A stretch of DNA of 64,000 nt. Source: Akkermansiaceae bacterium (GTDB lineage Bacteria; Verrucomicrobiota; Verrucomicrobiia; Verrucomicrobiales; Akkermansiaceae). A model generated the notes under the pieces. It worked only from the letters and a program-made list of their open reading frames with translations. It was not told the origin of the DNA and ran no database searches. The stretch's first letter is position 1; the number at the start of each line of letters is the position of its first letter. The stretch covers positions 124,001-188,000 of the forward strand of contig JABDRB010000026.1 in the NCBI GenBank assembly GCA_013041925.1. Reading direction: 5' to 3'. Shown one piece after another: positions 2,311 to 41,296 of this stretch. A program made the translations under genes and the position numbers.

Positions 2311-4482
2311 TCACATCCTGACCAGACCCAATCTGTTTAATCTCCGGATAAAGTCAGCAGGCATACGCCCCTTGGTTTTCGAGCCCATCTCCATTCGGGT
2401 CAGCACCAGAGAACCTGCCCCATGTGACTCACCTGCAATGAGAAGTCGTAAGCCATCGCGCGCGCAATCCCAGCGACTGTCATTCTCCAGCGCTACCCAC
2501 CCGTCCTCGAGGATGGCATTCAACACATCATCGCGGGACACCCCATCCTCGGCCCACCAGCGGACTTGATATTCATCATACGGCTCCATCTGATCCACGA
2601 CGCTCGACTCACGCTTTCGTGAAACACGCTCGACCTTGCCACGCCACCTCAGACTCCCCCACCAGCGAGCCCAGCCCCTCACCCAAGGCTGCAAACTCCG
2701 CGCCATCGCCAGTTTAACCCTGACTTCGATTCCATCAAACCCCTGCGGGATAGGACGCTGGGGCTGCATGGTCAGGGCGAGTTTCTGGTAAGGTGCCGTT
2801 CCCATCGCACCGTGATAAATCACACTCCCCGAACTGACGCAAAGCGCCGCTCCGCCATACACCTGCCCCTTCCACAACGCGCCACTCCCACGCCTAAACC
2901 TCTCAGAGTGATCCTTCATCAGGAGCGCCTCCGCCTTGCCGTAGCCATACTGCTGTTTAAAATAGTGCCAGACACGGGCCCTCCTCCGGTGCCAGACAAA
3001 GGCGGCACCACAAAACCCCATCCGAAAGCCCGCCTCACTCAGGCGCCAACAAAAATCCACATCATCCCCCGCCACTCGATAGCTCACGTCAAACCCACCC
3101 AGTTTTTGAAACGCCTCAGCGCGAACCGCTAAGTTGCAGCCAGGAAGATGTTCCGCCTCACAATCGTCCAACAAAACATGCGATGGCGCACCGGGAGCCG
3201 ATGCCACCACCACCTCGCCGAGGTCATCCCCCTTCATCGCCCCGCATCGCGAGCTCGGCCTAGGGGGTAAATTGGGACCGCCACAGGCATCCCACCCCTG
3301 TGTGGTCATGGCATAGGCCAGCCACTTGAGCCACGCCGCATCCGGTTCACAATCATCATCTGTATAGGCGATGATTTCGCCCGTTGCGTCCCGTGCTCCT
3401 TCATTTCTCGCAGCGCTCAGCCCCGCATGATCAAGCCGGATCATGCGCACGCCATCGAAGCCCGCCACGATGGCAGCCGTATCATCCGTCGAGCCATCAT
3501 CCACGACAATCACCTCGTAGTTCGGGTAATCCAGATCCTTGATGGCCGATAAACAGTCACTCATGTGACGCCCGCCATTGTGCGTGCAGACAACCACGGA
3601 AAACATCGGCCACTCAGGAAGGTTGATTGAATGCTCGGGCGACATCACCGTGGGCAACACGGCGGACAAGGCCGACAAGGCAAGCTTGGCATTCCCCTCG
3701 CGATCCGTCAGACCAAAATCCCAATCATCCACCACCGCAGAACGGTTGAACCATCGGTCGCTCCACGCATAGACGGTCAGGCCTGCCATCCCGGCGGACA
3801 ACGACTCATCGAGAGCCCAGAGCATGGCATCACGTTGATCCGCCTGACTGTGGCGCCGTGTATCCAAGCCAAACTCGCTGAGCAGCACCGGCCGGTCCCC
3901 CGCCACATTGTGCAAGCGTGGAAGATACGCCGCAAAGTCCTGCCGCTGCTCGAGGTAGACATTCATCGCAGTAAAGTCGGCATTAGCCGGCTCCATAAAC
4001 TCCGTCGTCGGAAAATTGGCATAGGCAAAAAGAAGGTGGGGGCTCTGCTCCCGACCGAGCTTGATCAATGCCTCTAGCGCCGCCCTTACCTTCATGACGC
4101 CCATCCAGCGCACCATATCGGCGGGAACCTCATTGGCCACAAACACACCCGCCACTGCCGCATGCCCACCCCACTGCTTTAATCCGGCATGCATCTGCAC
4201 CCGTGCCGCGGTCAACAACGACGGCTTCGACACAAAATCGCACCACGACTCCCAGGCCAAGCCCACAAACACCCATAACCCAGCCGCCTCCGCTGCATCC
4301 AGTAACGACGGATCAGGCTGACCATAAACTCGGATCGCATTAAACCCAGCCGACGCCATACGCGGCATCTCCCTATGTGGGTCCGGTTGAGGGTCAGGAA
4401 ACGGCCCATACGTCACCATCTTCACAAACACACGCCTACCGCCAGCACGGAAAAATTTCCCGTCGACCTCTAAACGATGCAT
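2311..4482 (-). CDS. bifunctional glycosidase-barrel / GT2 glycosyltransferase fusion
   Basis: About 723 residues. The N-terminal part (to about residue 285) resembles the TIM barrel of GH2-type glycosidases: it has the opening GKFFRAGGRRVFVKMVTYGPF, an acid/base Glu in VFVANEVP and a nucleophile-like Glu in LLSEFG. From about residue 295 a GT2 domain follows with VVVCTHN, the VVDDGSTDDT nucleotide-binding loop, the metal motif YTDDD and an acceptor-side GDDVDFCWR. The last ~120 residues match nothing I know. No signal peptide or membrane segment is visible, so it is probably cytoplasmic. ATG 4482 was chosen because homologous barrels start there; an in-frame GTG at 4527 would add 15 residues. 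It is divergent from queA, with overlapping or very short leaders. The activity of the barrel is inferred. Confidence 0.75.
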   Translation of the reverse strand: MHRLEVDGKFFRAGGRRVFVKMVTYGPFPDPQPDPHREMPRMASAGFNAIRVYGQPDPSLLDAAEAAGLWVFVGLAWESWCDFVSKPSLLTAARVQMHAGLKQWGGHAAVAGVFVANEVPADMVRWMGVMKVRAALEALIKLGREQSPHLLFAYANFPTTEFMEPANADFTAMNVYLEQRQDFAAYLPRLHNVAGDRPVLLSEFGLDTRRHSQADQRDAMLWALDESLSAGMAGLTVYAWSDRWFNRSAVVDDWDFGLTDREGNAKLALSALSAVLPTVMSPEHSINLPEWPMFSVVVCTHNGGRHMSDCLSAIKDLDYPNYEVIVVDDGSTDDTAAIVAGFDGVRMIRLDHAGLSAARNEGARDATGEIIAYTDDDCEPDAAWLKWLAYAMTTQGWDACGGPNLPPRPSSRCGAMKGDDLGEVVVASAPGAPSHVLLDDCEAEHLPGCNLAVRAEAFQKLGGFDVSYRVAGDDVDFCWRLSEAGFRMGFCGAAFVWHRRRARVWHYFKQQYGYGKAEALLMKDHSERFRRGSGALWKGQVYGGAALCVSSGSVIYHGAMGTAPYQKLALTMQPQRPIPQGFDGIEVRVKLAMARSLQPWVRGWARWWGSLRWRGKVERVSRKRESSVVDQMEPYDEYQVRWWAEDGVSRDDVLNAILEDGWVALENDSRWDCARDGLRLLIAGESHGAGSLVLTRMEMGSKTKGRMPADFIRRLNRLGLVRM

Positions 4483-4563: not shown

Positions 4564-5574
4564 GTGCTCAAAACCACCGATTTCAACTACGCCCTGCCCG
4601 ATGACCTCATCGCCAGCCGACCGCTTGCCGACCGTGCCTCGTCACGCATGATGGTCGTCCATCGAGATACTGGACAAATCGAACACCGGATGTTTGCGGA
4701 TTTCCCCTCGTATCTCCACCCCAACGACCTGCTCATCCTCAATGACACCAAGGTCACGCCAGCCCGATTTTTTTCCAATGACGAAAAAATCGAACTCGTC
4801 TGCACTCACAAACTCGACGAACTCGTATGGGAGTGCCTCGTCCGTCCTGGGAAAAAAATGAAACCTGGCCGCACCGTCGAGATTGGTGATGCCACCGGCA
4901 CCGTCGAATCCCTCATGGAAAATGGCAACCGCATTATCCGCTGGGACCGCACCGTGGATGAAGACCGCCACGGCCAACTTGCCCTCCCCCACTACATGCA
5001 ACGCGAAAGTGACCGCGCCGACCGCGACCGCTACCAGACCACCTTTGCCCGTGAAGAAGGCGCCATCGCCGCGCCCACCGCAGGTCTCCACTTCACGCCA
5101 GAAATCCTCTCAGGCATCGACCACGCCTTCCTCACACTGCACGTCGGCGTCGGCACGTTCCGCCCGGTCAAAGCCGAGTATATCAACGACCACGAGATGC
5201 ACCATGAACGTTATCACCTGAGCCAAGAAACAGCGGATCGCATCAACGCCGCGCGCACACAAGGTGGCCGAATCATCGCCACTGGCACCACCTGCACCCG
5301 CGTGCTCGAGAGCCTCGCACGTGAACACCCCGCAGCGGCACCATCCACCTTCAAACTCAAATCCGTCAGCGGTGAAACTGATATCTTCATCAGCCCACCC
5401 TATAACTTCCAAGTCGTCGACACCCTACTCACCAACTTTCACCTCCCCCAAAGCACGCTCATCATGCTCGTCTCCGCATTCGCAAGCCGCGAGCTTATTC
5501 TGGAAGCCTACGCCCAAGCCGTTGAGCAAAAATACCGTTTCTTCTCCTACGGCGATTGTATGTTGATCGTGTAA
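4564..5574 (+). CDS. queA: S-adenosylmethionine:tRNA ribosyltransferase-isomerase QueA
   Basis: About 336 residues. QueA transfers and isomerises the ribosyl moiety of SAM onto preQ1 in tRNA to give epoxyqueuosine. Recognisable segments are the N-terminal DFNYALPDDLIASRPL, the LILNDTKVTPARF block, EGAIAAPTAGLHFTPE, HVGVGTFRPVK, NDHEMHHERY and the C-terminal NFHLPQSTLIMLVSAF. I chose the GTG at 4564 because family members begin a few residues before the DFDYxLP motif; the upstream in-frame ATG at 4477 would add an atypical basic tail inside the neighbouring gene's start region. It converges with the ferritin gene, with only 3 bp between the stop codons. Confidence 0.95.
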   Translation: MLKTTDFNYALPDDLIASRPLADRASSRMMVVHRDTGQIEHRMFADFPSYLHPNDLLILNDTKVTPARFFSNDEKIELVCTHKLDELVWECLVRPGKKMKPGRTVEIGDATGTVESLMENGNRIIRWDRTVDEDRHGQLALPHYMQRESDRADRDRYQTTFAREEGAIAAPTAGLHFTPEILSGIDHAFLTLHVGVGTFRPVKAEYINDHEMHHERYHLSQETADRINAARTQGGRIIATGTTCTRVLESLAREHPAAAPSTFKLKSVSGETDIFISPPYNFQVVDTLLTNFHLPQSTLIMLVSAFASRELILEAYAQAVEQKYRFFSYGDCMLIV

Positions 5575-35326: not shown

Positions 35327-35347
35327 AGTTGAAATTTAAAATTTAGC
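35327..35347. repeat. heptanucleotide tandem repeat (three units)
   Basis: AGTTGAA-ATTTAAA-ATTTAGC, period 7, 30 bp upstream of the gene starting at 35297. It belongs to the same class as the repeats at 35,984-36,010, 38,718-38,738 and within 40,437-40,744. Confidence 0.5.
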
Positions 35348-35518: not shown

Positions 35519-36010
35519 TCACCCATTATCAGTTCGGGAGTATCGTTCCCCAGCCTTGATCATCGTCTCTGCGGGAACGATCGAACCAGGCCCAATAAAT
35601 GCCTGAGCGCAGATCCAGCAACCGTCTTCAATACTGATAGGTTTTGCAATCAAATCAAACGATTCCTTCCGGAAATCATGTGAACCGGTGCAGAGAAACG
35701 CACGTTGTGAAATACACACGTTATTGCCAATCTTCACGCTATCCAACGAGAGGATCATCACCTCGTCACCGAGCCACACATGGTCTCCAATCTCGAGGTT
35801 CCATGGGAAGGTGATATTTACCCGCGAACGAATCACCACGCCCTCCCCGACCTTCGCTCCAAATAACCGCAAAACCGCCACCTTGATCAGTGACGGTATT
35901 GGAAACCAGGGAGAAAAACAAAGTGACCGGCATAGCCACCAAAGCACCTCTTTCCACTTCGGAGCACCACGAGAAAAATGGTCGTTGTTAAATGTTGAAA
36001 GTTGAATCAA
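35519..36010 (-). CDS. WcaF-like O-acetyltransferase, C-terminally short
   Basis: 163 residues starting at TTG 36010; an in-frame stop lies just upstream and no ATG is available before the conserved region. WcaF-type left-handed beta-helix motifs are visible: FGAKVGEGVVIRSRVNI, FPWNLEIGDHVWLGDEV, ISQRAFLCTGSHDF and AFIGPGSIVP. The normal ending (VTKDVPP...GNPAK) is missing; the last 20 residues (ETMIKAGERYSRTDNG) look out of frame. The first codons are made by a heptamer repeat (35,984-36,010). It probably O-acetylated the polymer. It may be a damaged gene. Confidence 0.7.
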   Translation of the reverse strand: MIQLSTFNNDHFSRGAPKWKEVLWWLCRSLCFSPWFPIPSLIKVAVLRLFGAKVGEGVVIRSRVNITFPWNLEIGDHVWLGDEVMILSLDSVKIGNNVCISQRAFLCTGSHDFRKESFDLIAKPISIEDGCWICAQAFIGPGSIVPAETMIKAGERYSRTDNG

Positions 36011-38717: not shown

Positions 38718-38738
38718 AATTTAAAAATTGAAAGTTCA
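38718..38738. repeat. heptanucleotide tandem repeat (three units)
   Basis: AATTTAA-AAATTGA-AAGTTCA, period 7, immediately upstream of the polymerase start. Same class as the other period-7 repeats of this locus. A GGCGCC palindrome follows at once (38,740-38,745). Confidence 0.5.
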
Positions 38739-39992: not shown

Positions 39993-40066
39993 TGCCGCAG
40001 GGCGGCAAGTTAAAGTATGCCGCGGAGCGGCAGTTTAAGTTTAAGTCTTGGATTGCTACTTCAACT
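39993..40066. repeat. paired GCGGC hairpins plus 29-bp dispersed repeat
   Basis: Two hairpins, TGCCGC-AGG-GCGGCA (39,993-40,007) and TGCCGC-GGA-GCGGCA (40,018-40,032), are followed by a 29-bp sequence at 40,038-40,066. That sequence recurs as its reverse complement at 45,220-45,248 with 28 of 29 positions identical. The repeat runs into the stop codon of the 40,061-41,296 gene. Confidence 0.75.
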
Positions 40067-41296
40067 GTCGCGCAGCAGCGCGACCAGCCCTTCGCCAAAG
40101 GCTCGCGTTGGACAGCGCTCCTCCAATATTCTCAAACTCTGCTTACTCATGTTGAGCCACTCGACTTCACTCATGCCTACAATCTTATTCAAGCACTCCG
40201 CCACCTCATCTACGTCCACAGCATTAAAAGTCCAACCATTCACACCCTCATCAATCAATTCCTCCGCCGCACCAACATTACTACCACTCAACACTGGTAA
40301 TCCACAGGCCATCGCCTCATTCAGCACCAAGCCCCAGGGCTCTTCCAAAGCTGGATGCACAAAACAACCAGCATGCGCATAAAACCTGGGTAATTCCTCG
40401 ATCTGGCGGAAGCTGGGGAAATACACGGTTACGGATGGCTGATGACTGATAGCTGATTTAGGAAGCTCTTCCCATGGTGCACATTCTAGAACTTTCAGCC
40501 CTAGATTTTCACACTGTTTGATTAATTGAGACTTAAGCTCGCCATCCCCCAATAGGCATAAATTCCAGGGGGGCCTCAGGTCTTGGTTCCTGGTTCTTAG
40601 TTGGTTCAGCGAAAACTGGGCATAAGCCTCGATCAAGCGGGTCAGGTTTTTACGATCAATAAACCGATTGGAAGCCAGGAAATATTTTCCAACTTTGAGA
40701 CCTTCGACCTCCGACCTCCGACCTCCGACCTCCGACCTTCCGACTTTAAGACACTCTTCCGCGAAATACTCATTATCCACGACGTTATAACCCAGCTGGA
40801 TCTTCTCTGCTGGCATGCCAAGCTTCACGAGATAATCCCGATGCGAAGCTGCACCAACCAAGGCTGAGTCAAACTTGCCAATGATTCTACTTTTGATCCA
40901 CTCTTTCCACCAAACCCTCACACCATCCGCCTCACGAGTCTCACTCATGACAATGGCCTGAGCATGATTTTTTTTGCACCAGTCCAAGCACGCCCGAGCA
41001 TCCACACTGCCCCAGCCGGCAATAGCAACTGCATCTGGCTTCAAATTATCCAGAGACTGCATCATGCCAGCCCGCACGCGGCTTTTATCGAGCCGTTCCG
41101 CTGCCTCTCCCGGAAACACGGTCATTCTCTCCCATCTCTGCTCACCGAATTCTTCGTTCCAAGCATAGGTCTCATCCGCTCCACCCGTTTCCAAGCCTAC
41201 CACATTCCAACCTTCACTCCCTAACACCTCAGCTGCAGCAGAGATTCGAGCCAAATGATACGGCCCAAACCGGGCAAAATGGATAGCAACTTTCAT
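40061..41296 (-). CDS. GT4 glycosyltransferase carrying three in-frame heptamer repeats
   Basis: 411 residues. GT4 marks: an N-terminal HFARFGPYHLARISAAAEVL, GKYFLASNRFIDRKNLTRLI at the donor-domain start, and EPWGLVLNEAMACGLPVLSG with the Glu pair. Three stretches break the family pattern, each encoded by a 7-bp tandem repeat: GRSEVGGRRSEVEG (40,699-40,744), LRTRNQDLR (40,582-40,602) and SAISHQPSV (40,437-40,457). Three 7-bp units make 21 bp, so the frame survives. All lie where loops are expected, so activity may be kept. The stop codon falls in a dispersed 29-bp repeat. Confidence 0.88.
   Translation of the reverse strand: MKVAIHFARFGPYHLARISAAAEVLGSEGWNVVGLETGGADETYAWNEEFGEQRWERMTVFPGEAAERLDKSRVRAGMMQSLDNLKPDAVAIAGWGSVDARACLDWCKKNHAQAIVMSETREADGVRVWWKEWIKSRIIGKFDSALVGAASHRDYLVKLGMPAEKIQLGYNVVDNEYFAEECLKVGRSEVGGRRSEVEGLKVGKYFLASNRFIDRKNLTRLIEAYAQFSLNQLRTRNQDLRPPWNLCLLGDGELKSQLIKQCENLGLKVLECAPWEELPKSAISHQPSVTVYFPSFRQIEELPRFYAHAGCFVHPALEEPWGLVLNEAMACGLPVLSGSNVGAAEELIDEGVNGWTFNAVDVDEVAECLNKIVGMSEVEWLNMSKQSLRILEERCPTRAFGEGLVALLRDS
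40437..40457. repeat. intragenic heptamer repeat, type A
   Basis: GGCTGAT-GACTGAT-AGCTGAT, three 7-bp units inside the GT4 gene, coding for SAISHQPS on the minus strand. Confidence 0.8.
40582..40602. repeat. intragenic heptamer repeat, type B
   Basis: CTTGGTT-CCTGGTT-CTTAGTT, three 7-bp units inside the GT4 gene, coding for QLRTRNQD on the minus strand. Confidence 0.75.
40699..40744. repeat. intragenic heptamer repeat, type C
   Basis: About six units of a 7-bp motif (consensus CCTCCGA, with slightly diverged end units) inside the GT4 gene. The minus strand codes for GRSEVGGRRSEVEGLKVG, a 7-residue period. Confidence 0.85.

Follow-up and report, generated by a model that had tools for sequence, protein, structure and literature searches.

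The window analyzed here is a stretch of 64,000 nucleotides of an Akkermansiaceae genome (G000). At positions 40,061 to 41,296, on the minus strand, it carries a single intact open reading frame for a protein of 411 residues. The product matches Pfam PF00534 (Glycos_transf_1, E = 2.8e-27) and PF13692. Its AlphaFold model (pLDDT 93.4, pTM 0.91) has the GT-B fold, and the closest folds in the Protein Data Bank, as found by Foldseek, are those of MshA, BshA and HepE. A sequence search of the PDB with the same protein covered only the C-terminal part. The GT-B fold and the Glycos_transf_1 domain together identify the protein as a GT4 glycosyltransferase, which is also what an earlier sequence-only reading of this DNA had called it. 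The gene is located in an exopolysaccharide-type gene cluster.

Three segments of the GT4 gene consist of tandem 7-bp units, and none of the same score has a period of 5, 6 or 8-12. Array 1 (40,699-40,744, minus strand) is a (GGTCGGA)n array of about 6.4 copies (TRF score 76), about five of which are near-perfect, and its segment at 40,699-40,738 (sense AGGTCGGAGGTCGGAGGTCGGAGGTCGGAGGTCGAAGGTC) has a score of 30.5. It encodes RSEVGGRRSEVEGL, residues 187-200, in the segment bounded by GYNVVDN and FLASNRF, which is called loop 1 here. Array 2 (40,581-40,602, minus strand; AACTAAGAACCAGGAACCAAGA) is composed of the units ACTAAGA-ACCAGGA-ACCAAGA (ACCARGA, the CTTGGTT type of the other strand) and is weak and decayed, with a score of 7.5. 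Its residues, 232-239, belong to loop 2, bounded by RLIEAYA and PWNLCLLGDG, and its site coincides with a hot spot for arrays in the family. Array 3 (40,434-40,457, minus strand; ATCAGCTATCAGTCATCAGCCATC) has the units ATCAGCT-ATCAGTC-ATCAGCC (ATCAGCY); it is of moderate strength and decayed (score 9.5, TRF score 34) and encodes residues 280-288 of loop 3, the segment before VYFPSFRQ.

The level expected by chance was obtained by counting period-7 segment scores in 2000 codon shuffles of the gene. None of the shuffles reached the score of array 1, which means that its tandem 7-bp units are beyond chance. A period-7 segment with a score of at least 10 occurred in 0.2% of the shuffles, of at least 9 in 0.9% and of at least 7 in 8.75%, and two segments of at least 7 occurred in 0.35%. 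On these frequencies array 1 is certain, array 3 is likely and array 2 is weak when taken alone. Their joint occurrence is nevertheless unusual, given the 0.35% for two segments of at least 7. The original claim of three in-frame heptamer repeats in one glycosyltransferase gene was right about the period and about the reading frame, which survives intact over all 411 residues, but the three repeats are not equally secure.

Array 1 spans the only stretch of the model with a pLDDT below 50 (residues 193-199). Arrays 2 and 3 are found at a helix end and in coil, respectively, the coil of array 3 having a pLDDT of about 80-88. The nearest homolog (L073, 57-60% identity) is array-free, and Luteolibacter marinus carries no array here either. 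A homolog that encodes the repeat residues of the window gene with repeat-free DNA, named in the sequence-only reading as the contrary case, was sought and not found among those examined. Array 1 is not a copy of some sister array elsewhere in G000, because the GT4 gene is the only site of a GGTCGGA array in this genome.

Three further period-7 sites had been proposed in the window. All of them are either intergenic or at the extreme 5' end of a dubious open reading frame with a TTG start, and those at 35,327-35,347 and 38,718-38,738 score below 9. The third, an AAGTTGA-type segment at 35,986-36,006, barely reaches 9.0; it coincides with or precedes the start of an acetyltransferase-like open reading frame (35,519-36,010), whose TTG start falls inside the segment, and is probably outside the coding phenomenon. 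At loose thresholds the whole window contains eight segments of period 7, 14 of period 6 and 13 of period 9. The genome statistics refer to a sample of 1.04 Mb (32% of the 3.28 Mb of G000, the window included) and to a threshold of 13 matches out of 14. This sample holds five arrays of period 7, ten of period 6, eight of period 9, one of period 8 and none of period 5. Thus, in this sample, period 7 exceeds its neighbors that are not multiples of three (5 and 8) but not 6 and 9, and there is no overall excess. Most of the other arrays in the sample are at or upstream of gene starts.

A strong excess was seen only in relatives. In G118, the genome that contains the homologs L075 and L088, 339 kb hold 20 period-7 arrays, or 59 per Mb, compared to four arrays of period 6, ten of period 9 and two of period 8. 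Many arrays of G118 are very long (8-20 units) and at least a dozen different units are present, making this a good genome for studying array origin. Genome G117 also has a clear period-7 excess. Counts of 'coding' arrays based on open reading frames are unreliable in the sampled genomes because stop-free arrays yield long spurious reading frames, and only genes supported by Pfam or the PDB were used.

The homolog set consisted of 80 genes named from 84,980 species genomes and 12 from whole genomes, 90 in total after removal of duplicates. There are 36 period-7 arrays inside these genes, versus 11 for all other periods from 5 to 15, and the density of period 7 is 0.325 per kb inside the gene versus 0.096 per kb in the flanks. 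Twenty-nine of the 35 mapped arrays fall into three segments that make up 15% of the coding length and are the same three as in the window gene; none is in the N-terminal domain (40 kb of N-domain DNA). The mapping still held sequence-identical duplicate copies, which affects only the C-terminal count. The P-values of 1e-9 (gene against flank) and 7e-19 (location) are for related sequences with their shared ancestry ignored, and flanking DNA is no substitute for matched control genes.

The array-bearing genes, 20 out of 20, are from Verrucomicrobiota. Their units vary among orthologs and among the loops of one gene: in L092, for example, loop 1 has AGAAAGC, loop 2 has AGAAAGC and CTTTCAA, and loop 3 has CTCTCAA. 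Hence the observation first made within the window gene, of a common period with differing sequences, extends across orthologs at these three segments. A quick maximum-likelihood tree requires ten changes of the label 'array', at least seven of them on supported branches, and this, together with the array-free L073, indicates that arrays came or went repeatedly at the same places. Other repeats are present in the same loops. In L130 a repeat encoding RQGYGGQ, apparently dispersed, is inside or beside the heptamer array in loops 1 and 2 (about 3030-3070 and 3180-3240); its DNA in loop 1 is CTTCGCCAAGGCTACGGCGGGCAAG, and it may be a REP-like palindrome. The peptide HGGTEHTEGK in loop 3 of L080 looks like another dispersed in-frame repeat.

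One alternative is that the loops are ordinary variable loops, that the GGTCGGA array alone is real and that the rest is noise. The weakness of the CTTGGTT segment by itself and the lack of an overall period-7 excess in G000 would fit such an explanation. Strong period-7 arrays, however, recur at these three segments in 18 genes from other species, which is true of no other period. Given the homologs, chance is already disfavored and is considered to be highly improbable.

In one clade, two helices are array-coded and yet exactly as long as their native counterparts, and conserved residues seven apart stay in register. Loop 1 of the GLP type is 26 residues long in 10 of 12 copies from array genes and in 25 of 34 others, and the two longer array-gene copies have extra inserts. 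Its residues R11 and R18, seven positions apart, are kept in 9/10 and 10/10 of the array copies and in 24/25 and 22/25 of the native ones. The lag-7 DNA identity of this loop is 0.78 where it is array-coded and 0.29 where it is native. Loop 3 is 22 residues long and has L6, L13 and L15 in all 13 copies from array-bearing genes. Loop 2 is lengthened by arrays, the median being 24 residues versus 14. For L127 the model predicts largely confident helix at the array-coded residues 181-192 and 247-259. The idea that every array is a clean insertion was rejected, considering the equal lengths of loops 1 and 3 and a dihydroorotase (PyrC) array that adds only two residues. It had been proposed that the repeats interrupt the family pattern at loops. 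This describes the permissive segments of the window gene well, but in the clade with fixed-length loops the arrays are the helix itself and the length is unchanged.

The arithmetic of the unit may explain how register can be kept. As 7 mod 3 = 1, a 7-nt unit encodes one and the same heptapeptide whichever frame is read, so that any stop-free array is translated into a peptide with a 7-residue period regardless of the frame. Three units amount to exactly seven residues, and an array therefore meets both conserved positions at once. Loops 1 and 3 of the window gene are not of the fixed-length helix type, and the heptad argument is thus demonstrated for the relatives and not for the window gene. 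Because its loop 1 differs from the GLP type and array 1 is predicted to be disordered, array 1 is best seen as a tolerated linker, and we infer that the window gene is a tolerated-linker case.

In-frame arrays are not restricted to glycosyltransferases. In related genomes they are present in the Pfam-confirmed enzymes PurL, TrpD (two), Sua5 and a radical-SAM HemW/HemN-like protein, as well as in PyrC, where the array-coded stretch aligns with native sequence and, by alignment, adjoins a strand region and not a helix. The array loci are L173 598-630, L189 6961-6997, L195 5578-5618 and 10677-10759, L209 16990-17022, and L208 10394-10504; the hosts are PurL, PyrC, Sua5, TrpD, the HemW/HemN-like protein and a large membrane protein, the last of which has no Pfam match. 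Since arrays also occur outside helices, as in PyrC, and between genes, protein structure cannot explain period 7 itself.

Units drift within arrays. The lag-7 identity within loop 1 arrays (0.78) is higher than the identity between aligned orthologs (0.61), which is a sign of homogenization; loop 3 does not have this signal (0.83 within arrays, 0.87 between orthologs). Unequal gain and loss of units would also homogenize them at constant length, and this is one argument for a phase-variable switch, in which slippage by a single 7-bp unit shifts the frame and turns an exopolysaccharide glycosyltransferase on or off. The gene belongs to a class typical of contingency loci, the length of the unit is not divisible by 3, and the near-perfect units of array 1 would suit such a switch. 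Indirect evidence against it is that all 20 array-bearing copies are in frame and full length, although detection is biased toward intact ones, and that the same arrays are found in housekeeping enzymes, for which a switch would be deleterious. Many of the arrays are, moreover, short and degenerate. A switch is considered unlikely.

A graded array in L088 (4979-5058) proceeds from GCGGTGG through GCGGTAG and GCAGAGG to TCAGAGG; over 4940-5080 the array passes through these four units with its period unbroken, and a second kind (ACCAAGC) follows. A fraction of 0.88 of the distinct units have a neighbor one substitution away, whereas shuffled units gave a mean of 0.63 and a maximum of 0.84 in 60 shuffles. 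Three consecutive copies of GGTCGGA occur in 21 of 388 Verrucomicrobiota genomes, compared to a single match for the reversed pattern. The ATCAGCT unit is rare (2 of 388 genomes). Three copies of AGAAAGC were found in two of 11 tested genomes, precisely the two with AGAAAGC in GT4 loop 1. The reversed-pattern control is invalid for CTCTCAA (pattern CAACTCTCAACTCTCAACT), because read backwards this unit is its own rotation. A completely free unit sequence was rejected on the basis of the one-mutation network and the reversed-pattern controls. Of the earlier idea that a mechanism and not a sequence is conserved, the shared period with differing sequences is supported, but the sequence is not free.

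The recurrence of specific units across families, where reversed controls do not recur, and the confinement of AGAAAGC arrays to two tested genomes might point to a small mobile or templated element, similar to the Rickettsia palindromic elements or to a telomerase-like or reverse-transcriptase enzyme, that seeds heptamer tracts at preferred sites. The other apparently dispersed in-frame repeats of these loops (RQGYGGQ and GGTEHTEG) would be in line with this. Nevertheless, the arrays showed neither inverted repeats nor target duplications nor fixed ends, units vary within a single array (L088), loops 1 and 3 are unchanged in length and the window GGTCGGA array is the only one in G000. Such an element is considered an unlikely explanation.

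The best explanation, to which we assign a probability of roughly 60%, is that the known excess of heptamer repeats at the DNA level is filtered by protein structure. A period-7 process, possibly slippage or local template switching, would generate arrays, which are abundant in many Verrucomicrobiota. The GT4 gene would keep them only where the protein tolerates them, in the variable linker of loop 2 and in the surface segments of loops 1 and 3. In many homologs the latter two are fixed-length helices, and a heptapeptide period would suit amphipathic helices with conserved residues seven apart. Selection would hold length and register, while the unit would drift and be homogenized within each array. 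Arrays would arise in this way and replace native codons. From the sequences, repeat DNA appears to have been absorbed into working proteins. A bolder proposal is that heptamer repeats recurrently give rise to protein helix, replacing heptad-spaced native codons repeatedly, with differing units in orthologs and with length and key residues kept; this is tentative, its chances being somewhat below even. The dominance of heptamers among the long simple repeats of many bacteria is an old question. Because the same protein sites are struck by different heptamers, both the DNA process and the protein filter become testable. The arrays offer a concrete case of repeat DNA that has turned, with the frame kept, into structured sequence of enzymes, those of housekeeping as well as the product of a surface-sugar gene.

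Several known systems resemble these arrays. The heptanucleotide contingency repeats of Haemophilus (PMC2651432; HMW1A, PMC8262952) are also heptamers linked to surface-structure genes, but variation in unit number and switching are documented there, as far as these sources describe them, whereas the GT4 arrays are known from one genome per species. The Rickettsia palindromic elements (reviewed in PMC10969869) likewise form translated, in-frame repeats at tolerated positions of unrelated enzymes. They are mobile palindromes of about 150 bp with a conserved peptide. The GT4 arrays, tandem 7-mers of 20-45 bp whose units differ, have neither a palindrome nor a fixed sequence and so do not belong to that class. 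The STRR repeats of cyanobacteria (Calothrix heptamers, as summarized in PMC4692102) are tandem heptanucleotides with several sequences per genome that, according to this summary, served for fingerprinting; the literature searched yielded no account of STRR repeats within the coding segments of a single gene family.

The sequence-only reading named no earlier description of this arrangement inside genes. However, TAACTGA direct repeats of Beggiatoaceae, Cyanobacteria and Bacteroidetes have already been reported within or overlapping 25 predicted proteins (MacGregor 2015, PMC4679880). They too are short heptamer arrays in different phyla, some of them in open reading frames (LSVISYQ), but they have one fixed unit and are mostly just upstream of start codons, in contrast to the many drifting units and recurrent in-gene sites of the GT4 arrays. 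The units GGTCGGA, ATCAGCY and ACCARGA, which are inside the window gene, are not repeats of the TAACTGA kind. No description of in-gene heptamer arrays in Verrucomicrobiota was found among openly accessible papers. An excess of heptamers in bacteria is known, and polymerase slippage has been proposed for it (Mrazek 2007, as cited in PMC4679880 and PMC4692102). As represented in those citing papers, these long simple sequence repeats (LSSR) share with the present arrays the dominance of period 7, the variety of units and the scattering over the genome. The LSSR works, as cited there, stress intergenic location and units of 3n length in genes, whereas the GT4 arrays recur, in frame, at particular sites within a single enzyme family and can encode a helix as long as the native one. 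What the present analysis adds is a proposed protein filter and the finding that differing heptamers return to the same sites within this family.
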